Positions 1-17,379 of a stretch of DNA of 20,755 bases are shown one piece after another. The DNA is from a virus: positions 1 through 20,755 of the IMG/VR virus record IMGVR_UViG_3300032242_000993. The stretch is one strand, 5' to 3'. Every line of letters begins with the position of its first letter. Position 1 is the first letter of the stretch. Below the pieces are notes generated by a model. That model did not search any database. It was not told where the DNA came from and was given only the letters and a program-made list of their open reading frames with translations. Made by a program: the position numbers and the translations under genes.

Positions 1-1170
1 CGCAAAGACGACAAGATCCCTGAGCTTGAGACCGCCGCCAAGGCTTTGCTGGCAGGCATCATCACCCGAGCCGAGTACGACAAGACCGTCAGTAAGCTCA
101 AGCCCGTCAAGCCCTACGAATCCATCCCCCGCCCTGCTACCGACGAGGAGGCTCTGAGCGCCCTGCATGAAAGCAAGCGCCCCAAGTGGCGTGCCGCCGA
201 CCAGTGGGAGCCGGGCCGCAATGTTGGCCTGAGACTCGACATCCCCGCTTACAGCGACCATGGCGTGTGGGTCAACTCCATCCATGATGAGGACAATGGC
301 GGCGTGGCCTACGGCCCTGTGTCGTCCGTCAGGAATGCCGTGTTTGATCCCGGCGCATCCAAAGCCCAGCGTGTGGCTACTGGCGAGGCCAACAAGTCAC
401 CCTTTGCCAAGATCAAAGGCGAGTGGGAGCCCATGACCGAGGATGAGGCCGTCGCCCACATGCAACAGCATTTGAGCCATCCTGACTATGTCCAAGTTGG
501 CTACGACCCTCGCCGCCGGGATTACTTTTATCACCGTGGTAACACCAAGAAGCCAATTACACATGCCGAGCACGTTGTTCAAATCGGCCCACTCGTGCTG
601 GCAAAGAACCCCGTGTACGGCAAGCGCAAGGACTTTGGGCTGGCTGGTGGCGGCGATGTTCACATGAACAAAGGTGGCAACTTAACCGTGGAAGAAATGC
701 GCAAGGCTATTGCCAAGGCATCTGGCTCCAATCCTCCAATGGCTGAGAAAAACCTCACGACCCTGCAAGACTTCCATACAAGCTTGGGTGACAACATCAG
801 AAAGCGTGCGGCTGACATGCAGAACATGATTGAGTCCACGCCCTTCAAGTACGATGTGGGGCATCATGTGTTTACAGAAGACAGCGCCAGAAGGAATTTA
901 CCTCCATTGAAAATTCTTTCTCGTGTAATGGTTGGCAACGACCCTATAAGAGTTGGTGGCATTGGCAGTAAGGTTGTTAAAGACCCAGCCACTGGCAAGA
1001 CCATGCGCACACCGCATGAGGCTGGGTATAGAGTAAGGCTTGAACATTCTCCAGAAAATTGGTCAGAGTTCCGCATCCCTGAGACAGCCATCAAAGGCCG
1101 AGTTGATCTGGCTCGCGGCGGCAGAGTTACCCACGCCCACCACTTAGATATTGAGGAGCGCCCCCTATGA
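1..1170 (+). CDS. Large polyvalent-type phage protein, C-terminal part (5' end outside window)
   Basis: The frame is open from base 1, so this is the 3' part of a longer gene. A TTG at 46 is only an internal leucine codon. About 389 residues are visible. The opening stretch (RAEYDKTVSKLKPVKPY, then GLRLDIPAY and an SIHDED segment) resembles modules I know from giant polyvalent proteins of uncultured phages. So does the middle part, with YDPRRRDYFYHR followed by VVQIGPLVLAKNPVYG. No catalytic motif could be assigned. Two short KGG/RGG motifs appear, HMNKGGN at 661-681 and LARGGRV near 1108, in the same style as motifs in later genes. The stop overlaps the next start as ATGA, so the two are translationally coupled and may act together. 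The family assignment rests on remembered similarity and is moderately sure; the biochemical role is unknown. Confidence 0.7.
   Translation, partial: RKDDKIPELETAAKALLAGIITRAEYDKTVSKLKPVKPYESIPRPATDEEALSALHESKRPKWRAADQWEPGRNVGLRLDIPAYSDHGVWVNSIHDEDNGGVAYGPVSSVRNAVFDPGASKAQRVATGEANKSPFAKIKGEWEPMTEDEAVAHMQQHLSHPDYVQVGYDPRRRDYFYHRGNTKKPITHAEHVVQIGPLVLAKNPVYGKRKDFGLAGGGDVHMNKGGNLTVEEMRKAIAKASGSNPPMAEKNLTTLQDFHTSLGDNIRKRAADMQNMIESTPFKYDVGHHVFTEDSARRNLPPLKILSRVMVGNDPIRVGGIGSKVVKDPATGKTMRTPHEAGYRVRLEHSPENWSEFRIPETAIKGRVDLARGGRVTHAHHLDIEERPL
1153..1158 (+). promoter_or_regulatory. Shine-Dalgarno GAGGAG for the 1081-aa gene
   Basis: GAGGAG lies 8 bases before the ATG at 1167 and inside the end of the preceding gene. 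It supports a real second start rather than a frameshifted continuation of the upstream polyvalent gene. Confidence 0.7.
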
Positions 1171-4100
1171 AGAAGCTGGTCGGCGAAGGAAAGCCACTGC
1201 ACTCTGCTGTTGATAAAGCCGCCAAGGGTTTGAAGCGCAAGGTGGGCACAGGCGCAGAGTTCATGAAGGAACTCATGGGCATCACTGGCATCAAGCCCAC
1301 TGAGATCCAAGAGCGCGGCCTCAATGAAGTTATGGGCATGCCTCGCATGACTCACGACCAGTTCATGGCAAACCTTGCCATTCGACCTACGCCAGCCATC
1401 CGTGAGAAGGTGTTGAGCGACGAAGATGAAGGTGAAGATGACCCTCGTTACCTGACCCCTGAAGAGCGCAATTACGGCCCAGACAATCAAACACATCATC
1501 GCCAGTGGACGTTACCCGGCGGCAAGAACTACCGCGAGATGTTGATCAAGTTGCCTGATGAACGCGCAGGCATGGATGAGAAACGATTTGAATTGGATGC
1601 CAAACTTCGTCGAGCCGCGCCAGAGAATCGTTCAGCCATCATGCGTCAGATGGATGAGTTGCGAAACAAGTACGAGAGCACCCCCGAGGTGTTTGAGGGT
1701 GTCGGCAGTCACTTTGGTGGCGAGCCCGGCATCCTTGCCAGCATGCGTCTGAAAGACCGCACTGTCCCCGGCGACATGGGCTACACACTGATCAACAAAA
1801 GGTCTGGCAACAAGTCTCAGCACTACGCAACCGCAGAAGAAGCGCAAGCGGCAATGCAAGGCATGCCCGAGTCCATTCGACCCATGCTATCAATCCAGCA
1901 GAGCCGTGGCCCTGACAAAAAGATGTTGCACCTTGAGGAGTTGCAGTCTGACTGGCATCAAGAAGGACGCAAACATGGCTACAAAGGAGATGTGCCGGAC
2001 TTAACGCCTGAGCAAAAAGCAAGGATAGAGGAGCTTGGAGAAAAGATTCGTAGAGGTGTTGGAACATCTGCTGAAATCGACGAAAGCAAAGCACTTAGAG
2101 ATCAGTTGTCAAAAAAATACAAAGCTGTGCCTGATGCCCCATTCAAAAAGAATTGGGAAGAGATGGCGCTCAAGCGTCTGATCCACCATGCCGCAGAAAA
2201 GGGCTACCACGGCATTGTGGTGACTCCCGGCGAAGAGCAGGCAGACCGTTACAGCTTGGCAAAGCATGTTGAAGGAATTCGCTTCACAAAACATGGAGAC
2301 AATAAATACAGCGCAGATGCTTTTAACAACGGAAGATCAATCGGCGCTGTTGAACGTGGTGACATTAACAAAATTTCCGAAATGTTTGGAAAAGAGATTG
2401 CCGACAAAATTCAAAGTCATGAAAATGAAGAAGGAATTTTGAGAGACCTTGATTTGCAAATCGGCGGCGAAGGCATGAAAGCCTTCTACGACAAAAAAGT
2501 CCCCAACATCCTTAACAGCATTGGCAAGAAGTACGGCGTAAAGACTCAGTTGCATGGAATGCCTCTGGCTAAAAAAGGCCGCGAAAGAACAGACGAAGAA
2601 TTTATAGAAGCTTTACGCAATGACAATTTAGTCAATGCCGATTACTTTCGATTGCCAGAAGAGGCAAAAGACAAGTATTCATATCATCAAGAGAATGTCG
2701 GTTTGCACCACTTCCCCATTACAGAAGAGATGCGAAAAGACGTATTAGCAAATGGCCTGCCCTTGTATTCACAAGGTGGCAAGGTGCACATGGCAGATGG
2801 CGGTGACATGGATCAAATGCAATTAGAGATAATGAACAAGAAGGCCAAAAAACCCAAGAAGCCACCAACGCCTTTACATTTTGCGCCTGCACCCGCGCTA
2901 TCAAAGAAGGAAATTGAGGCCCATGCTGAGCGCATTACACGCCAGATGGCTGGCTTGGATAACCCCAACAACAAGACCCTGCAACAGTTGGCGCGAGAGC
3001 AGAACCTGCATGTGGACATCCGTAGCGGCGGCCCCAAGTCAAACTTGCCTGTGATCGACTATTCCAAACTGGGCAAGAATGCATTCACCGTCGGCGTGCC
3101 GGGCGACCCAAGTATTGGTGGCCTTGTACCGCATGACGAGACCAATGAGCGTCACAGCATGGAGTACCCCAAGGCTGGCGAATACCTCAGAGGCATTGGT
3201 GGCGAGCAGTTGTCCAGTGAAGTGCCAATGTATGGCGGCTATATGTACGGTGGCTATGGTCATCCAGCAGGATGGGCCAGCGACCTTGGCGCAAGCCGTG
3301 GCATGTTCAATGTCGTGCAAAAGCTTGCCAAGGAAGATCCAAGCCGCGAGATTTACGGTCACTACCACAAGATGACACCTGAGTCGCTGAACCACGCCGT
3401 TCACTTCTTAGATGCCCTGATGACCCATTCGCAGTTGCACAACCTGACTGATGAACAGCGCAACATGCTGAACCACTTGATGCGCGAGGTGCAAACCACC
3501 ACGAACAAGAAGCATCGCCCATACCCATCTTTCCCCGGGTTTGAGAACCCTGCCGATGTCATGGCACACGCTCACCTGAGTTCTGACATGCGCAAGAAGA
3601 TCATCAGCCTGATTGGTAAAGAGAAGTATCTGCCCGGCGGCACTCAGCGTCTGGATGATGTGATTTTTGCCGCAAGTCATCCTGAACTGCGCAACATCGA
3701 AACTGGCGCTGGCGGCAACGCTGTGATCAAGTTCGATCCCAAGGGCAACTTGAAAAAGAGCTTGTCACCTCACCCAACCTATGGTCACGACATTCCGTCT
3801 CAAACCATCGGTCAGACGCGATACACGACTCCATTCCAAATTTTGGCCCCGCGCTCATATCACCGCGCCGTAACTCAGATTGCGTCTATGGGAAAAAAGG
3901 TTGAGCCGTTCAACATGGCGAAGATGAGCATCATTCGTGAGCCTATTGACGAGCAGTACATCAACCAGATGGGTCAATACGAGCAAGCTATGCGCAAGCG
4001 CCTTGGCTACAAGAAGGGCGGCAAGATCAAGAAGATGGCTGACGGCGGCTTGCTGAGCATCATCAAGGACAAAGGCGTGGAGGAAGCGCCCGACATGGAT

Positions 4101-4412
4101 GTCAAAGCGTTTATCATGCCCCGCGCTCCCATGTCCAACTCATTCCCCGTAGGTGGCATTCAGCAACCACCGCAGGCTCCACAAATGCCACAGCAGAGTG
4201 CGCCCGCTCCACAAGGCATGCCACCCCAAGGAGCGCCAGCACAACCTCCAAGCAACATCCTCCAGATGACGCCCCAAGGCCAAGCCATGAACGCCATCAA
4301 GCCGCCCCAAATGAAAAAAGGTGGCTCTACACGACGTGTTGCATACAATCACAGCAAAGACACCATGATGCTTGAACTCATGGACGCCAAGCGATATTCC
4401 AAAAGAAAGTAA
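1167..4412 (+). CDS. Large polyvalent protein, 1081 aa, two conserved modules
   Basis: The protein looks modular. Residues 1-85 carry a GTGAEFMKEL...EIQERGL opening. Around 170-450 sits a module with HFGGEPGI, then HLEELQSDWHQEGR (255-268), ALKRLIHHAAEKGY and GGEGMKAFYDKKVPN (about 433-447). This signature recurs in polyvalent proteins of marine and freshwater phages. A second module has FTVGVPGDPSIGG (from 640) and VPMYGGYMYGG. A Pro/Gln-rich, probably disordered stretch leads to a basic C-terminus. Two bipartite motifs occur: QGGKVHMADGG (536-546) and KKGGKIKKMADGG (949-961). KKGGS follows at 1050. Polyvalent proteins are thought to travel into the host with phage DNA and act on host defence or metabolism; that role is not visible here. 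It starts in a 4-base overlap with the upstream gene and ends 3 bases before the portal gene. Its precise activity is unknown. Confidence 0.8.
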   Translation: MKKLVGEGKPLHSAVDKAAKGLKRKVGTGAEFMKELMGITGIKPTEIQERGLNEVMGMPRMTHDQFMANLAIRPTPAIREKVLSDEDEGEDDPRYLTPEERNYGPDNQTHHRQWTLPGGKNYREMLIKLPDERAGMDEKRFELDAKLRRAAPENRSAIMRQMDELRNKYESTPEVFEGVGSHFGGEPGILASMRLKDRTVPGDMGYTLINKRSGNKSQHYATAEEAQAAMQGMPESIRPMLSIQQSRGPDKKMLHLEELQSDWHQEGRKHGYKGDVPDLTPEQKARIEELGEKIRRGVGTSAEIDESKALRDQLSKKYKAVPDAPFKKNWEEMALKRLIHHAAEKGYHGIVVTPGEEQADRYSLAKHVEGIRFTKHGDNKYSADAFNNGRSIGAVERGDINKISEMFGKEIADKIQSHENEEGILRDLDLQIGGEGMKAFYDKKVPNILNSIGKKYGVKTQLHGMPLAKKGRERTDEEFIEALRNDNLVNADYFRLPEEAKDKYSYHQENVGLHHFPITEEMRKDVLANGLPLYSQGGKVHMADGGDMDQMQLEIMNKKAKKPKKPPTPLHFAPAPALSKKEIEAHAERITRQMAGLDNPNNKTLQQLAREQNLHVDIRSGGPKSNLPVIDYSKLGKNAFTVGVPGDPSIGGLVPHDETNERHSMEYPKAGEYLRGIGGEQLSSEVPMYGGYMYGGYGHPAGWASDLGASRGMFNVVQKLAKEDPSREIYGHYHKMTPESLNHAVHFLDALMTHSQLHNLTDEQRNMLNHLMREVQTTTNKKHRPYPSFPGFENPADVMAHAHLSSDMRKKIISLIGKEKYLPGGTQRLDDVIFAASHPELRNIETGAGGNAVIKFDPKGNLKKSLSPHPTYGHDIPSQTIGQTRYTTPFQILAPRSYHRAVTQIASMGKKVEPFNMAKMSIIREPIDEQYINQMGQYEQAMRKRLGYKKGGKIKKMADGGLLSIIKDKGVEEAPDMDVKAFIMPRAPMSNSFPVGGIQQPPQAPQMPQQSAPAPQGMPPQGAPAQPPSNILQMTPQGQAMNAIKPPQMKKGGSTRRVAYNHSKDTMMLELMDAKRYSKRK

Positions 4413-7219: not shown

Positions 7220-7249
7220 TGCGTGTTTGCGCTGAAAAATGCGCGTTTT
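7220..7249 (+). repeat. Two near-identical TGCGyGTTT boxes spaced 20 bp
   Basis: TGCGTGTTT (7220-7228) and TGCGCGTTT (7240-7248) differ at one base. Their starts are exactly 20 bases apart, about two helical turns, just before the GroES-like gene. This could be a pair of protein-binding half-sites, or chance. Confidence 0.35.
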
Positions 7250-7253
7250 GGAG
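7249..7253 (+). promoter_or_regulatory. Shine-Dalgarno TGGAG that fixes the co-chaperonin start
   Basis: TGGAG lies 6 bases before the ATG at 7260. The in-frame ATG at 7239 has no ribosome site and falls inside the second 20-bp-spaced box, so 7260 is preferred. Confidence 0.65.
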
Positions 7254-7259
7254 AAAACT

Positions 7260-7712
7260 ATGAGTGAAAAAGAGATTACTCTCATCGAGAGTGATGAAAG
7301 CTTGCCGTCTGCTGACGAGCTTAGCTGGGCCTTCCCCGATGTCAAACCCGGACAGAGCCCATTTGGAGGACGAGTCATCGTCCAACTCCGCCGAATCAAA
7401 CAAAAAACCGCTGGCAAGATCATCTTGGTTGAAGAGACCAAGGAGAACGAGAAGTGGAACAACATGATCGGCAAGGTCGTAGCCATCGGCCCCCTCGCCT
7501 TCAAAAATCGTGAAACCATGGCCTCATGGCCCGAGGGCTCATGGGCAGAGATTGGCGACTATGTCCGAGTCCCCAAGTGGGGCGGAGACCGTTGGGAGCG
7601 CCCTGCACCCGGCGACGACGACGAAGATCCCGTACTGTTCATGACCATCAACGACCACGAGTTGATTGCAAAGGTCACGGACAACCCCTTGTCCTTCAAA
7701 GCCTTTGTTTAA
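7260..7712 (+). CDS. Phage GroES-like co-chaperonin, 150 aa
   Basis: Residues 34-140 follow the Cpn10/GroES fold order. PFGGRVIVQL begins the barrel. It is followed by KQKTAGKIILVEET, which matches the GroES mobile loop; IIL (54-56) stands where GroES has the IVL that docks on GroEL. GKVVAIGP (71-78) and GDYVRVPKWGGDR (99-111) follow, then PVLFMTINDHELIAKV (124-139), equivalent to GroES EVLIMSESDILAIV. It is longer than host GroES (about 97 aa), with an acidic 33-residue N-terminal extension and an insertion around 79-98. Phage co-chaperonins such as T4 gp31 replace GroES on host GroEL to fold the capsid protein. The position just before the scaffold and capsid genes fits that job. No GroEL is encoded in the window, so it would have to use the host one. 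Confidence 0.85.
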   Translation: MSEKEITLIESDESLPSADELSWAFPDVKPGQSPFGGRVIVQLRRIKQKTAGKIILVEETKENEKWNNMIGKVVAIGPLAFKNRETMASWPEGSWAEIGDYVRVPKWGGDRWERPAPGDDDEDPVLFMTINDHELIAKVTDNPLSFKAFV

Positions 7713-9941: not shown

Positions 9942-10856
9942 ATGGCCGCACCAATGCGCAGTACGGACTTTCGTTCAATCGTTGAGCCTATCCTCAACGA
10001 GTGTTTTGACGGAGTCTATGACCAACGTGCCGACGAGTGGAGCCGTGTGTTCCGCGAGCAAGATGGCATCCCACGCAACTACCACGAAGAACCCGTCCTG
10101 TACGGTTTCGGAGCCGCCCCTCAGTTACCTGATGGCACTCCCGTTACCTATCAACAAGGTGGCGTCCTGTTCTTGAAACGCTATGTGTACAAGGTGTATG
10201 GCTTGGCCTTCGCTTTGACCAAAGTGTTGTACGAGGACGGTGATCACATCCGTATCGGTCAGGTTTATGCACGCCACTTGGCTCAATCTTTGGTGGAAAC
10301 CAAAGAATTGTTGTCAGCAAACGTGCTGAACACTGCGTTCAACTCCAGCTACCCCGGTGGCGACGGCGTGTCTTTGATCAGCACCGCCCACCCCATCGTC
10401 AACGGTACTGTCAGCAACCAGTTGTCCACCGCCGCTGTTTTGTCTCAAACATCTCTCGAACAGATGCTGATTCAAATCCGCCAAGCAGTTGACAACAACG
10501 GCAAGCGTATTCGTCTGGTTCCCCGCCAATTGGTGGTGGCCCCCGGCAATATCTTCCAAGCTGAAGTTTTGTTGAAATCTGTGTTGCGTACTGGCAATGC
10601 AAACAACGACATTAACCCCGTCAAGTCCATCGGTTTGTTGGACGAAGGCGCGGCTGTGTTGTCACGTTTGACTTCCAGCACCGCATGGTGGGTTCAGACC
10701 GACGCTCCCGAAGGTATGAAGCTTTTGATGCGTCGTCGTTTGGAGAAAACCATGGAAGGCGACTTCGAGACTGACTCTATGCGCTACAAGGCCACAGAGC
10801 GTTACGACGTTGGCTTCACCGACTGGCGTGCCATGTACGGCACACCCGGCGCTTAA
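9942..10856 (+). CDS. Major capsid protein, HK97 fold (Mu gpT-like group), 304 aa
   Basis: The ribosome site AAGGAG is embedded in the preceding stop. Conserved landmarks are KVYGLAFALTKVLYEDG (84-100) and ARHLAQSLVETKELLSANVL (110-129), the spine-helix region. These are followed by AFNSSYPGGDGVSLISTAHP (132-151), SLEQMLIQIRQAVD (171-184), LVPRQLVVAP (192-201), NNDINPVKSI (221-230) and a C-terminal ERYDVGFTDWRAMYGTPGA. This order matches capsid proteins of the Mu-type HK97-fold group found in many uncultured phages. The STAHP segment and the NDIN segment are the most telling. The region 50-80 would form the E-loop. A strong terminator follows at once, as often seen after capsid genes to set transcript levels. 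The assignment is confident. Confidence 0.9.
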   Translation: MAAPMRSTDFRSIVEPILNECFDGVYDQRADEWSRVFREQDGIPRNYHEEPVLYGFGAAPQLPDGTPVTYQQGGVLFLKRYVYKVYGLAFALTKVLYEDGDHIRIGQVYARHLAQSLVETKELLSANVLNTAFNSSYPGGDGVSLISTAHPIVNGTVSNQLSTAAVLSQTSLEQMLIQIRQAVDNNGKRIRLVPRQLVVAPGNIFQAEVLLKSVLRTGNANNDINPVKSIGLLDEGAAVLSRLTSSTAWWVQTDAPEGMKLLMRRRLEKTMEGDFETDSMRYKATERYDVGFTDWRAMYGTPGA

Positions 10857-10869
10857 TCAACGCCAAAAC

Positions 10870-10900
10870 GGGGAGGGGATAAAACCTCTCCCCATTTTTT
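10870..10900 (+). terminator. Rho-independent terminator after the capsid gene
   Basis: GGGGAGGGG (10870-10878) pairs with CCTCTCCCC (10885-10893), with one G-U pair and an ATAAAA loop, followed by ATTTTTT. It lies 14 bases after the capsid stop. No clear promoter follows before the next gene, so it probably reduces rather than abolishes downstream transcription. Confidence 0.88.
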
Positions 10901-10931: not shown

Positions 10932-12197
10932 ATGCCTCAATTTGCAGATGACATCTTTTTAGGTGGCAACAGCGGTCAAACCTATATGGGTACTGGCACG
11001 CAAGCCGCCACTTCCGTTTTTACTGGAACAATCTCTAGCACCACTTTGACTGTTGTTTCGACTCAGTCTGGTGACGCTTTGGTGGTTGGACAGTACATCA
11101 CAGGTTCTAGCGTAACTGCTAACTCCTATATCACTGCCGCAACTGGTCAAAACAGTTCTGGTCAAAACACATACACCTTGTCTCAGTCATCCACTGTGTC
11201 GTCCAACACGACCATGTATGCTTCTGGCAATGCGTTGTTGGGCGATCCTGCACCAATGTCGCTGGGTGTTGGCCCCTTGGGCCGTGTTTATGTGTTTGAC
11301 ACCATTCCACAAACATTGCAAGCCGCAAACATTGCCGCTTCGCAAACCCCCGCCGCCGCTGGTAACTTGACATTGACCGCAGGCACTTCTGCCAAGTCAG
11401 TTATTCGCGCTGACGGTACAACCGTGATTCAGCTTGATGTGCCTCGCGCATTGCAAGTTGTAAGCGGCACTGCCGCCGCCGCGACATTGTCTTCTGTGAC
11501 TGTGTCTGGCACTGGCGCAAACGGCAAGATTGCCTTTACATCGCAAACAGGTTTGGTTTCTGGTCAACGTGTGACTGTGTCAGGCGCGGCTAGTGGTACT
11601 GGTTCAATCACTGGTTACAGCAACCCCACAACCTACATACTGACTGCTGTTACAGCTACCACTGCCATCCTGACCACCACGGCAGGCGCGGCAGTTGCAA
11701 CCAGCGCATCGGATGGCGGCACTTTGACCATGACCTTCACTTTGGGCGTGGCTCCTCAAAACATGACCGTGTCTGGTTATGACTACTACGGTCAATCAAT
11801 GACTGAAGTGATTACTTCCAGTGCCGCAGTCAGCACCGCAGTCAACGGCAAAAAAGCTTTCTATCAGATCGTTTCGATTGCCGCCGCAGGTGCAACTGGC
11901 ACAACCATTACCGCTGGCACAACCGACATTTTGGGTTTGCCAGTTCGGGTGATTGATGCTGGTTACGTTGTCAGTGCAAGCTGGGCAAACACCCTTGGCT
12001 TGAACTCTGGCACGTTGGTTAACGCCGACATGACTGCAACTGCAACCAGCACCACTGGCGATGTTCGCGGAACTTTCTTGCCTGCAACCAACGCAACCAA
12101 CGGCTCACGTCGTTTGGTGATGGCGATTGCAGTTCCTGCTATTGCTGTTGGCCCCAACGCAACTCGCGTCGGCGCTCTTGGCGTAAATCAAGCCTAA
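10932..12197 (+). CDS. Beta-rich virion structural protein with two inserted modules, 421 aa
   Basis: AAGGAG precedes the ATG. The opening MPQFADDIFLGGNSGQTYMG and the middle GPLGRVYVFDTIP...QTLQAANIAA form a backbone I recall from structural proteins beside capsid genes. Two Thr/Ser/Gly-rich modules interrupt it. Module A (about 31-96) runs from TGTISSTTLTVVSTQSGD through VVGQYITGSSVTANSYIT to YTLSQSSTVSSNTTM. Module B (about 180-270) includes GLVSGQRVTVSG and GTGSITGYSNPTTYILTA. Both resemble small Ig-like modules scattered through environmental phage virion proteins. Module B splits a backbone strand pair: LDVPRALQVVS resumes as NMTVSGYDYYGQSMTEVI. The protein is probably exposed on the virion, perhaps as a head decoration or neck component; the exact role is unknown. 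It ends with tandem in-frame stops TAA TAG, the second running into the next ribosome site. Confidence 0.72.
   Translation: MPQFADDIFLGGNSGQTYMGTGTQAATSVFTGTISSTTLTVVSTQSGDALVVGQYITGSSVTANSYITAATGQNSSGQNTYTLSQSSTVSSNTTMYASGNALLGDPAPMSLGVGPLGRVYVFDTIPQTLQAANIAASQTPAAAGNLTLTAGTSAKSVIRADGTTVIQLDVPRALQVVSGTAAAATLSSVTVSGTGANGKIAFTSQTGLVSGQRVTVSGAASGTGSITGYSNPTTYILTAVTATTAILTTTAGAAVATSASDGGTLTMTFTLGVAPQNMTVSGYDYYGQSMTEVITSSAAVSTAVNGKKAFYQIVSIAAAGATGTTITAGTTDILGLPVRVIDAGYVVSASWANTLGLNSGTLVNADMTATATSTTGDVRGTFLPATNATNGSRRLVMAIAVPAIAVGPNATRVGALGVNQA
11022..11219 (+). other. Inserted beta module A in the 421-aa protein
   Basis: Residues about 31-96 show the pattern ISxTTLTVxSxxSGxxxVGQxITGxxVTAxxxIT followed by YTLSQxxTVSSxTxM. 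It is Thr/Ser-rich and framed by backbone segments that read naturally without it. I know this pattern as a widely shared module of phage virion proteins. Confidence 0.6.
11469..11741 (+). other. Inserted beta module B in the 421-aa protein
   Basis: Residues about 180-270 contain GQRVTVSG, GTGSITGYSNPTTYILTA and AILTTTAGAAV. This pattern is also common in environmental phage proteins. It separates LDVPRALQVVS from NMTVSGYDYYGQSM, which look like neighbouring strands of one fold. Confidence 0.6.
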
Positions 12198-12209
12198 TAG
12201 GAGGTAGTC

Positions 12210-13637
12210 ATGGCTACAAAGAAAGACAGTGCAGGCGGCTTTAGCCAAATGCCAAAGATGATGACTGATGAGCCTTCTGTCATCCTGAAGATGAAAAAGG
12301 GCGGTCATGTGCATTCAAAGCACAAAGCCAAAGAAGAGCATGGTCACAAGTCTATGCATCACATGGCTCATGGCGGTCACGCCAAGCACCATGAGGTCAT
12401 GGAAGCTGAGCACGGCGCAAGCCCCAAGAAGCCTTCTATGCATGAGCGCAAGAAAGCTATGAGTGCTTCTTTGATGAAAAAAGGCGGCAAAGTGGTTCAT
12501 AAAGCCGACGGCGGCATGATGGGCGCACCCATGGCTAACCCTCAGATGATGGCGGCAATGGCAAACCCAGCTATTCGTCAAGCTTTGGCTCGTCGTGCTA
12601 TGGCTCAGCGTGCTATGGCTGGCGCACCCGCTGGCTTGCAACCCGGCATGAAAAAGGGCGGCATGGCTAAAGGCGGCGATATGGCTCAAGACAAAGCCAT
12701 GATCAAAAAGGCTTTCAAAGAGCATGACGCACAAGAGCACAAAGGCGGCAAAGGCACTCACCTGAAGCTGAAGTCTGGCGGCGGCTTGCAAAAGAAAGCG
12801 GAAGCTTTCGAGACCATGACCACCATCGAAAATGATGAGAAGCCTTATGTGCGCACTGAAATGCATGATGGCGATAAAACTGATCGTCGTCACGGCACAA
12901 AGGGCATCAAAGAGGCCAATGCTGGCGGCTACAAGCACGGCGGTCATGCCCACAAGAAGCATCACTATGCGGCTGGTGGCACGATTGAAGGCAATGAAGG
13001 CAAATTCGTCAAGACCGAGATGCATGACGGCGACAAAGCCGACAAAGCTCATGGCACTGGTGGCATTCGCGTGAGCAACGCTGGCGGCTTTAAGCATGGC
13101 GGTAAAGCAAAACACCACTACGCTCACGGCGGCACTGTCCCCGAAGGTGATTGGGAGCACCGCCCCGCCAATGGCACACCAAAAGGCGTTGTAAACACCA
13201 AAACTGGCGAAGTTAAAGAAGCCAATGCTGGTGGCTACAAGCACGGAGGTAAAGCCTCAAAAAAAGCCTACGCCACGGGGGGCAGTGTTAACGACGCTGG
13301 TCGTCCCGTGGCATACCCTGAGCGTCCAAGAGCACGTCCTGTAGTCAACACTGCTCAGTCTGGCACTTTCAAGCATGGCGGCAAAGTCCGCCGCTTTGAA
13401 GATGGCGGCGATGCAGTAGTGGCTCGTGAACAAGCTCGTAGGAAAGCTGAGCAAGCGCAAGACAAAGCAGACAATGAAAAATTACGCAACCAAGTGCTGG
13501 ACGTTCCGCGCTCCATGTACAACGGCGTAAAAAACTTCATCAATGACAACTTTGCGCCTTCTGGAAGCTATGGCAGGACAGATAAAAATTCTGCCCCTGC
13601 TCCTGCACAAAAACGTGGCGGTAGCGTCAAAAAGTAA
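12210..13637 (+). CDS. Lys/His/Gly/Met-rich repeat protein with many GGK motifs, 475 aa
   Basis: AGGAGG sits 5 bases before the ATG. The composition is extreme. Residues 29-70 hold 12 histidines within 33-68. Then KKGGKVVHKADGG (90-102), a Met/Ala-rich helix (about 104-145), KKGGMAKGGDM (148-158) and EHKGGKG follow. Residues 205-400 form four tandem units of about 42-53 residues, each carrying a [YF]KHGG core and ending in GG: 205-257, 258-308, 309-358, 359-400. Two units share TEMHDGDK and NAGG before the KHGG core. The last unit reads FKHGGKVRRFEDGG, matching the bipartite motif of the 1081-aa protein. The C-terminus is charged and ends QKRGGSVKK. There are no membrane segments and it is probably largely disordered. 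It is strongly basic, so it could bind DNA, metal or acidic proteins. The function is unknown. It lies between structural genes and ends at a terminator, so a virion role is likely. Confidence 0.8.
   Translation: MATKKDSAGGFSQMPKMMTDEPSVILKMKKGGHVHSKHKAKEEHGHKSMHHMAHGGHAKHHEVMEAEHGASPKKPSMHERKKAMSASLMKKGGKVVHKADGGMMGAPMANPQMMAAMANPAIRQALARRAMAQRAMAGAPAGLQPGMKKGGMAKGGDMAQDKAMIKKAFKEHDAQEHKGGKGTHLKLKSGGGLQKKAEAFETMTTIENDEKPYVRTEMHDGDKTDRRHGTKGIKEANAGGYKHGGHAHKKHHYAAGGTIEGNEGKFVKTEMHDGDKADKAHGTGGIRVSNAGGFKHGGKAKHHYAHGGTVPEGDWEHRPANGTPKGVVNTKTGEVKEANAGGYKHGGKASKKAYATGGSVNDAGRPVAYPERPRARPVVNTAQSGTFKHGGKVRRFEDGGDAVVAREQARRKAEQAQDKADNEKLRNQVLDVPRSMYNGVKNFINDNFAPSGSYGRTDKNSAPAPAQKRGGSVKK
12822..13409 (+). 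repeat. Four tandem coding repeats with KHGG core
   Basis: Units begin at 12822, 12981, 13134 and 13284. The first three encode 53, 51 and 50 residues, each ending KHGG[KH]A followed by a short basic stretch and GG. Units 1 and 2 are closest (TEMHDGDK, HGT, GGI/KGI, NAGG). Unit 4 is shorter and more diverged. Confidence 0.75.
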
Positions 13638-13640
13638 ACG

Positions 13641-13666
13641 GCGGGGGCTACGGCCCCTGCTTTTTT
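13641..13666 (+). terminator. Rho-independent terminator with UACG tetraloop
   Basis: GCGGGGGC (13641-13648) pairs with GCCCCTGC (13653-13660), one G-U pair included, around the loop TACG, followed by TTTTTT. The loop closed by C-G is a UNCG-type stable tetraloop. It lies 3 bases after the repeat-protein stop. Confidence 0.9.
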
Positions 13667-16326: not shown

Positions 16327-16485
16327 ATGCCATTGATCAAATCAAAATCCGAGAAAGCTTTCAAAAAGAATATTGCCACCGAGGTCAAAGCTGGGCGTCC
16401 CGTCAAGCAGGCCGTGGCAATTGCCTACAGCACCAAACGCGCCGCGCCACAAAAAAAGGCGGGTGGCGGAAAGTGTGAGTGGTAA
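16327..16485 (+). CDS. Small basic conserved phage protein ending in Trp, 52 aa
   Basis: The protein starts [20 protein letters not shown], continues [20 protein letters not shown] and ends [12 protein letters not shown]. The segment [30 protein letters not shown] is characteristic of a widespread family of very short phage proteins of unknown function (resembling DUF6496-like proteins, from memory). It should fold as two short helices with a basic tail. It has a strong AAGGAGG. It is the first of four consecutive short genes whose products end in tryptophan with a cysteine a little upstream. Nothing shows a catalytic role; nucleic-acid binding would fit the charge but is speculation. Confidence 0.82.
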
Positions 16486-16487
16486 TC

Positions 16488-16883
16488 ATGGCTAAAAGAG
16501 GCTTGTATGAAAATATTCATCGAAAACAAGAAAGAATCGCTGAAGGCTCTGGTGAGCGCATGCGCAAGCCGGGTGCAAAAGGCGCTCCAACTGCTGAAGC
16601 TTTCAAAGAATCAGCCAAAACAGCCAAAATGAGCAAGGGAGGCGTCTCTCTTGCCATTGGCAGGGGCGAGAAGCTTCCTGAGTCCAGAGGCGCTGGGTTG
16701 ACCGAAAAAGGCCGTGAGAAGTACAACCGGGAGACTGGTTCGCATCTGAAGGCTCCACAGCCCCAAGGCGGCGCTCGCAAGGATTCTTTCTGCGCCAGAA
16801 TGAGCGGTGTGGTCGAGCACTCCAAGGGTGACGCACCAAGAGCAAAAGCATCATTGAAACGCTGGAATTGCCCCGGCTGGTAA
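16488..16883 (+). CDS. DUF6321-like small basic phage protein, 131 aa
   Basis: The start is the ATG at 16488, 2 bases after the previous stop. A GTG at 16479 would overlap that gene and adds only three residues. The N-terminal part reads RGLYENIHRKQERIAEGSGE and RMRKPGAKGAPTAEAFKESA. Then KMSKGGVSLAIGRGEKLP follows, with a KGG motif. The C-terminal half, GLTEKGREKYNRETGSHLKA and RKDSFCARMSGVV up to LKRWNCPGW, matches the DUF6321 family as I remember it, widespread in phages and of unknown function. It is basic, has two cysteines (FCAR and NCPGW) and no membrane segment. It is the second of four short genes ending in Trp. The family match is confident; the role is unknown. Confidence 0.85.
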   Translation: MAKRGLYENIHRKQERIAEGSGERMRKPGAKGAPTAEAFKESAKTAKMSKGGVSLAIGRGEKLPESRGAGLTEKGREKYNRETGSHLKAPQPQGGARKDSFCARMSGVVEHSKGDAPRAKASLKRWNCPGW

Positions 16884-16893
16884 AGGAAAAGTC

Positions 16894-17085
16894 ATGCCAA
16901 TAGATACAACTGTTGAAACACCAGATGTGCCAGAGCCTCCCGCAGAAAGCGATGGTGGTACTGTTGGCACACAAAACTCTGTGCAACCGTTTCACCTCAA
17001 CAAGTACAAGCAAGGTGGCAAGGTTGATTTAAGCGACTGCAAGGTGTCCACGCACCAGAAAAGCAAGTCTTCTCCCAACTGGTAA
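16894..17085 (+). CDS. Small GGK-tagged protein ending in Trp, 63 aa
   Basis: AAAGGA overlaps the preceding stop and lies 6 bases before the ATG. The first 35 residues are acidic and proline-rich (ETPDVPEPPAESDGG). The last 26 hold HLNKYKQGGKVDLSDCKVST (34-53) and end KSSPNW. This C-terminal block closely parallels that of the next gene (KGGAINLDHCSVST...NSDW), while the N-termini are unrelated. It is short and hydrophilic with one cysteine. The function is unknown. The shared block looks like a tag rather than a domain because it is only about 25 residues long. Confidence 0.75.
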   Translation: MPIDTTVETPDVPEPPAESDGGTVGTQNSVQPFHLNKYKQGGKVDLSDCKVSTHQKSKSSPNW

Positions 17086-17094
17086 GGAATCATC

Positions 17095-17379
17095 ATGTTG
17101 AAATCAAGCCCAGCAGTTAAATCAGCAGTTGAAAGCGCCATGGAGCGCATGCAATCTGGCAAGTCTGATTCAAAACCAGAACCCAAGCCATCAAAACCTT
17201 ATTCTTTGTATGGCGGCCTTGGCTACGACAAGGTTATGGCAATGCAAAAAGCTGGTCACGGCTTTGGCAACTACAGCGGTGAGCCAAGGCCATGGAACAA
17301 AGCCAAGGGCGGTGCAATTAACTTGGATCATTGCAGTGTCTCAACTGCTCCCAAAGGCAAGAAAAACTCTGATTGGTAA
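17095..17379 (+). CDS. Small protein with the same C-terminal tag, 94 aa
   Basis: AAGGA in the TAAGGA junction precedes the ATG. Residues 1-35 are basic and helical then proline-rich (KPEPKPSKP). The middle (36-67) holds YSLYGGLGYDKVMAMQKAGH and EPRPWNK. Residues 71-94 read KGGAINLDHCSVST and end KGKKNSDW. The tag aligns with residues 40-63 of the preceding protein at GG, a V/I, a D/N, L, C, VST and the final Trp. Probably both are small virion or assembly accessory proteins, judged only from their position among structural genes. The function is unknown. Confidence 0.75.
   Translation: MLKSSPAVKSAVESAMERMQSGKSDSKPEPKPSKPYSLYGGLGYDKVMAMQKAGHGFGNYSGEPRPWNKAKGGAINLDHCSVSTAPKGKKNSDW

Follow-up and report, generated by a model that had tools for sequence, protein, structure and literature searches.

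A phage head-cluster protein built of small beads joined at KxGG seams

What is the role of a basic, repeat-bearing protein encoded two genes behind the capsid gene of a phage? The window, that is, the whole analysed stretch of 20,755 bases (IMG/VR record IMGVR_UViG_3300032242_000993), carries a phage head and tail cluster. A tagged 374-aa protein, a tagged 1081-aa protein, the portal, a GroES-like protein, a 333-aa protein, the capsid protein and a 421-aa protein precede the protein in question, hereafter called the “string” protein, while a virion structural protein (phrog_5838), small proteins and tail genes lie 3′ of it. “Tagged” means carrying the KxGG motif described below. The relevant features of the window are as follows.

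46-1170, plus strand: tagged 374-aa protein, with ARGGRVTHAHHLDIEERPL at its C-terminus
1167-4412, plus strand: tagged 1081-aa protein, putatively multidomain and polyvalent-like
2799-2804 (residues 545-546) and 4017-4022 (residues 951-952), plus strand: GG in the 1081-aa protein
7239-7712: phage-encoded GroES-like co-chaperonin, within the head cluster
9942-10856: capsid protein
10932-12197: 421-aa protein, between the capsid and string genes
12199-12204: AGGAGG, ribosome-binding-like site of the string ORF
12210-13637, plus strand: bead-string protein of 475 aa, containing the repeats (ORF list and sequence)
13640-13661, plus strand: terminator-like hairpin 3′ of the string gene (consensus scan)
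16479-16883, plus strand: two-bead protein with a KGG seam and a C-terminal DUF6321 (Pfam 2.7e-16, phrog_16028 6.7e-24)
16894-17085, plus strand: small protein with the tail YKQGGKVDLSDCKVST...W
17095-17379, plus strand: small protein with the tail AKGGAINLDHCSVST...W

The string ORF has no PHROG match and no Pfam family at E 0.1, the stress-induced KGG model included. The hairpins at 10870-10893 and 13640-13661 bracket the 421-aa gene and the string gene, and terminator-like sites exceed the shuffled expectation only mildly in the consensus scan (16 vs 10.7).

How is the string protein organized? Its parts, all on the plus strand, are listed below.

12234-12311: conserved N-terminal segment, residues 9-34, with the first KKGG at its end
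12675-12782: bead AQDKAM...LKLKSGG, residues 156-191, common to a second string family
12834-12980: repeat unit U1, 49 aa
12981-13133: repeat unit U2, 51 aa, also the profile match to the second string family
13134-13283: repeat unit U3, 50 aa, with invariant V335, G346, G347, K351, K352, G357 and G358
13284-13409: repeat unit U4, 42 aa, of the SGTFKHGGKV type, behind which foreign beads enter in relatives
13410-13550: confident but poorly conserved helix, residues 401-447
13617-13622: C-terminal GG, residues 470-471, four residues before the end

The four KHGG units described by the original prediction are real, since their alignment scores lie beyond those of shuffled sequences. The Smith-Waterman score of U1-U2 is 176 (500 shuffles: 37.0, sd 6.8), and those of U1-U3, U2-U3, U2-U4 and U3-U4 are 94, 84, 49 and 48; none of these was reached by any of 500 shuffles, and the score of U1-U4, 41, was reached by one. 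The KHGG cores start at residues 242, 295, 344 and 388 (nucleotides 12933, 13092, 13239 and 13371). At the DNA level, a 42-nt core recurs three times and a 27-nt core four times, with spacings of 159, 147 and 132 nt, and Tandem Repeats Finder did not find an array of the unit. Among the words that the units had been said to share, KHGG occurs in all four, but NAGG is confined to U1-U3 and TEMHDGDK to U1 and U2. Similarly, the repeats do lie within 12822-13409, where they had been placed, but the ORF extends over 12210-13637 and has 22 GG doublets spread along its whole length, between residues 9 and 471, and the interval thus takes in only part of the pattern. The KHGG units are the densest part of a GG pattern that runs through the entire protein.

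The prediction of likely disorder agrees with the AlphaFold2 model (54 rows), in which the mean pLDDT is 53 and residues 213-351 fall below 50. The longest confident element is the helix at 401-447, and the region around it (396-450) has no column conserved at 90% in the 54 homologues that remain when 75 rows (74 complete ones out of 80, plus the window protein) are limited to less than 88% identity. In the same homologues, 16 of the 35 columns at residues 1-35 are conserved at 90% or more. The 13 invariant columns of the family all lie at 190-391 and comprise ten glycines, V335, K351 and K352, every one of them inside or adjoining the region predicted to be disordered. The invariant glycines are encoded by two to four different codons across the rows, indicating that the constraint acts on the protein. 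Moreover, the GG at 470-471 is kept in all 52 rows that have a letter there.

The protein was also said to be very basic, and it is: its pI is 9.99 and its charge +39.4, with 13.3% Lys and 6.9% His. These values, together with the predicted disorder, would suit a protein that condenses or coats DNA, in which the repeats act through charge alone and the motif has no specific reader, and lysines of the T4 internal proteins do touch DNA phosphates (PMC3012670). Nevertheless, the repeat region contributes a net charge of merely +11.8 across its 196 residues, the invariant columns are mostly glycine and not lysine, and the tag is also present on large proteins that are not basic coats. We thus regard such a purely electrostatic role as quite improbable.

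Are the repeats a product of recent slippage, as had been suggested? U1 and U2 use different codons at 18 of their 32 identical residues, and the units are therefore old. A near-identical internal DNA duplicate occurs in none of the 69 ORF-called homologues and in one of 80 in the first set. In the string ORF of locus L043, a tandem unit pair at residues ~141-220 shares 39 identical residues although 22 of 117 nucleotides differ, and over the segment compared by codon 21 codons differ synonymously and 1 non-synonymously; the preservation of the residues despite the base changes points to strong selection on the unit, not to fresh slippage. Units within one protein resemble each other more closely than permuted pairs do (48.6 vs 42.3%, 0/2000 permutations) in a comparison uncontrolled for relatedness, with medians that are nearly equal (43.6 vs 41.0). 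The many synonymous differences between units and the lack of near-identical DNA copies in the 69 homologues contradict recent slippage.

The string protein nevertheless changes quickly. In 142 pairs with a capsid identity of ~97% or more, the string proteins have a median identity of 69.1%, against 97.7% for the capsids, and between the window and locus L097 the identities are 99.3% (capsid), 59.4% (string protein) and 57.0% (421-aa protein). The 421-aa, 333-aa and 1081-aa families diverge as fast as the string protein or faster, so this rapid change is not peculiar to it. Unit number had been expected to vary between relatives, and the KxGG-unit counts, which are regex-based and rough, do range from 3 to 6 in the 69 homologues, so that the check proposed with the prediction does not refute it. 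The divergence and the length shifts (more than 15 residues in 110 of the 142 pairs, with the rough unit count differing in 75) are what one would expect of a low-complexity protein that is prone to slippage, decaying and weakly constrained, but the invariant columns, the synonymous divergence around preserved residues and the missing DNA copies largely refute this explanation, which we consider very improbable.

The changes in length tend instead to be other segments inserted at the GG seams. Of 37 insertions of at least 20 residues relative to the window protein, 17 have a GG no more than 6 residues from each edge and 36 have one so close to at least one edge; neither count was attained in 1000 random placements. 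A bead matching phrog_7884 occupies residues 405-455 of the string protein of L026, with similar beads in L043 and L086, and a bead of the type MPLKGHxYH lies between GG motifs behind U4 in L342-L348. Among the 63 of 80 loci classified for the latter bead (17 near-duplicates were omitted), it lies inside the protein in 36, stands alone in 15, and is found at the N-terminus in 8 and at the C-terminus in 4. For two bead sequences, a search of the phage collection yielded nothing at 1e-3.

The small neighbouring proteins are likewise mosaics, in which recurring beads are recombined with K-x-GG between them, or a bead carries a KxGG tail. In the fetched IMG/VR loci, the GLYANIH bead has GG at every inner edge in 102 of 102 distinct contexts (73 with GG on both sides, 26 with the ORF start and GG, 3 with GG and the ORF end), where the upstream GG includes the first glycine of the bead itself. 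These loci were obtained through queries with KxGG proteins or tagged neighbours, plus a few named phages, and the count accordingly describes those lineages. In the named phages, i.e., Cyanophage KBS-P-1A, Pelagibacter phage HTVC031P and phage DSL-LC05, the GLYANIH and DUF6321 beads are separate ORFs without KxGG seams, and the GLYANIH bead is the whole ORF in 3/3. The S-P4 label “structural protein” (T4-GC0119), which would suggest DUF6321 in virions, was dropped, since T4-GC119 is termed a hypothetical protein in PMC3037559.

How widely is the motif distributed? We scanned with the pattern [KR]x?GG[KRASHNQDG][VIAMLTS] in ORFs called as the longest non-overlapping frames, which include some antisense frames. 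All 69 string ORFs are tagged, with 525 tags against 51 in shuffles. Elsewhere, tagged ORFs number 19 of 22 in the 1081-aa family, 6 of 8 in a sister cluster and 33 of 78 in a small-protein family, the last count being low because the ORF calling lost the window ORFs 16479-16883 and 16894-17085. The fibre family is tagged in 2 of 80. In the ORF-called loci, the pattern scan found no tag in the capsid, portal, 421-aa, 210-aa, 182-aa, GroES and adaptor families. The same motif is thus present in a subset of other phage proteins, which above all supports the suggestion in the original prediction that the array could be the multivalent form of a dispersed tag. The 333-aa family, located 5′ of the capsid gene and likely the scaffold, is tagged in 6 of 46 and its counterpart in hub2 phages in 14 of 50; the tag is therefore not confined to cargo. 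The terminase family of the hub2 phages matches in 18 of 23, with RGGGI in the one inspected, so the pattern also catches unrelated sites. In cultured T7-like phages, 34 ORFs checked gave 2 pattern matches.

Nine contigs of 51-59 kb allow a tally of observed against expected tags: 72 vs 6.2 in string proteins, 14 vs 4.6 in polyvalent-like proteins, 9 vs 2.7 in proteins with a C-terminal W, 8 vs 0.6 in those with a THAHHL tail, and 22 vs 32.7 in the remaining 646 ORFs. As the ORF classes were defined by patterns after the data had been seen, this tally is a description and not a blind test. Conserved tails follow the last GG, in the forms THAHHL(D/E)IEERPL and K(V/I)xLxDC(K/S)VST...W. The former stands directly after the last GG in the 374-aa protein (46-1170) and its relatives. 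The small proteins at 16894-17379 and their relatives end in Trp in 80 of 83 cases, and many have GGK(V/I)..C..ST tails.

In the 1081-aa family, G951 and G952 are the sole invariant columns of a 20-row alignment reaching down to 21% identity, and the five nearly invariant columns include G545, G546 and K950; the alignment comprises 20 of 22 members (a duplicate contig and a fragment were omitted), and many rows are cut at the locus edge. The model of the protein shows several folded parts, and it places the tags in two segments of low confidence, 535-569 and 949-1035, at the edges of these parts. The fold search with this model gave no match at E 0.001 or better, NCBIfam gave none in 20 members, and solved-structure searches with two profiles yielded nothing better than E above 0.3.

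Is KxGG then simply a flexible, soluble linker, used wherever modules fuse and read by no partner? Its location at module seams and in low-confidence segments adjoining folded parts would be expected of a linker. Yet the motif is invariant where the modules vary, and it has preferred flanks at -3, -2, +1 and +2; its general form is [aromatic/hydrophobic]-[K/A]-x-G-G-x-[V/A]. Furthermore, in 59 of 69 string homologues only 2-5 residues separate the last GG from the C-terminus, where nothing is left to join, and a mere spacer is thus insufficient. We consider the linker-only explanation unlikely, though it deserves to be weighed.

The same architecture recurs in a second string family, which was first seen as a 382-aa KxGG-rich protein of a different phage, MW202675. 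This family has 277 related stretches, 51 of its 51 ORFs are tagged, and 7 of 38 rows match the stand-alone phrog_16028. Comparison of the two family profiles gave a probability of 96.9 and an E of 2e-10 over 48 columns spanning U2, as against 0.038 and 0.067 for reversed profiles and 0.24 or worse for 12 column shuffles. The bead AQDKAM...LKLKxGG is present in both families: the HMM of residues 148-191 matches 5 hub2 ORFs and L353 at E<=1e-3.

Other strings use a different seam. In L355, L356, L373 and L384, the same MPLKGHxYH bead is found in long strings with a recurrent seam, which is here acidic (EEVEQIDEL or EEVEIDEA) and not homologous to KxGG. Of the 14 strings examined, these 4 have 4-8 such seams each (0.2-0.5 in shuffles) and the remaining 10 have 0-2. 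Prohead protease gp21 of T4 cleaves at (I/L)xE, and by sequence the acidic seams look like such sites.

These observations bear on whether KxGG could be a processing site, with the strings being polyproteins that are cut after GG during head maturation to free the beads. Identical beads do occur as stand-alone ORFs, the acidic seams flank the bead in some strings without GG, and GG with a short tail resembles the ubiquitin-like precursors. Against this stands the complete genome of the relative MW202545: in a Pfam scan of 70 of its 72 proteins (two large tail genes were omitted), 25 of the 28 families listed include neither a prohead protease nor a cysteine protease, and the MCP matches capsid models only. 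The GG cleavage consensus of adenain has M/I/L two residues before GG; in the 926 tag contexts, by comparison, a hydrophobic residue is found at -3 in 53% and at -2 in just 6%, and an adenain-type site was rejected. A ubiquitin-type precursor was rejected as well, because the string model, albeit of low confidence, contains no strand of 3 or more residues before GG and hence no beta-grasp fold. Processing at KxGG is improbable in our estimation.

Where does the string protein occur? The family, which has no annotation, comprises at least 544 related IMG/VR stretches; it is often met in phage contigs from aquatic sources and belongs to the core head cluster. The 421-aa family is directly upstream of the string gene in 62 of 69 ORF-called loci, and the capsid gene is two genes upstream in 61 of 69. 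In the phage collection, the single record with a relative at E 1e-3 is MW202545, a 57-kb circular genome from Manatee Spring with a similar gene order. Nine of ten long contigs with a relative of the 374-aa protein have the string protein, and one contig of 44.7 kb lacks it. Three betaproteobacterial MAGs have contigs with the string protein, as does, weakly, one Akkermansia MAG, and freshwater betaproteobacteria are the first candidate hosts. Among 300 genomes of the order, however, the starting genome itself is the only one to contain it, which makes a resident prophage unlikely; that reading was set aside.

Computation establishes the bead-string architecture, the seam position of the motif, its protein-level conservation, its confinement to some of the proteins and its occurrence close to C-termini. 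What do they suggest together? We tentatively propose that the string protein is a modular internal head protein, in which KxGG serves as a sorting or docking tag comparable to the capsid-targeting sequence of T4, a reading that we find quite plausible though still short of probable. The internal-head part is suggested by the place in the head cluster, with the capsid gene two genes upstream in most loci, and the tag part by the restriction to a subset, the invariance in the 1081-aa family, the GG-edged insertions and the second string family. The proposed course is as follows. Small modules, some of which are also separate phage proteins, are joined by KxGG in a basic, mostly disordered chain. 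This chain would be made alongside the head proteins and enter the head. An assembly partner may read KxGG as a short linear tag, and proteins with one tag would then be packaged along with the multiply tagged string and the DNA, much as the capsid-targeting sequence of T4 brings in its diverse internal proteins. Finally, the lysines of the string could help to neutralize the DNA.

The comparison with T4 is instructive. Its internal proteins are diverse cargo with one conserved tag (PMC3012670), which is an N-terminal propeptide of 10-20 residues that is cleaved off (PMC5694885). The two systems have in common a fast-changing, diverse, lysine-rich protein set with one short tag, encoded among head genes, and conservation of a tag on an otherwise diverse protein is found in the GG of the 1081-aa family. 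They differ in that the T4 tag is N-terminal and removed, whereas KxGG is internal, repeated and C-terminal, with no protease seen in the MW202545 scan. The polyvalent proteins of phages, for which injection is predicted (Iyer et al. 2017, PMC5512222), offer a second parallel. They have many domains per chain, are mosaic and are encoded beside virion genes, and the tagged large neighbours may resemble them: the 1081-aa model has several folded parts but no assigned fold or family, and the string protein has modules but is mostly disordered. In the string proteins, by contrast, the beads are tiny and mostly without known enzymatic domains, and a single seam motif is conserved; the terms glycine and linker are absent from the text of PMC5512222.

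Disordered proteins of the RGG/KGG-box and YGG types also combine a basic residue and GG with nearby aromatics and disorder, but here the basic residue is Lys and not Arg, and the motif is at module seams and C-termini. In the literature searched, whose coverage left out most subscription papers and all preprints, the KxGG motif, the string family and DUF6321 are undescribed.

A bolder extension is that KxGG forms an assembly code that can be carried from protein to protein: it would be recognized by a partner from the phage or its capsid, any mini-protein acquiring it at a seam or as a C-terminal tail would be taken into the head and passed on to the host, strings would grow by bead insertion between KxGG motifs, and other phages would use acidic, protease-like seams. 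This is possible but, in our judgement, unlikely. Were KxGG a sorting tag, the sequence alone would reveal which small phage proteins travel in the virion, and T4 would no longer have the only such packaging signal, this being a second one. Whatever the function of the seams, their sharing shows how phages fuse and exchange mini-proteins. Among the other proteins of MW202545 (L083, L084), Pfam recognizes a Thoeris anti-defence Tad2-like domain, a Band_7 protein and a ketoacyl-synthase.
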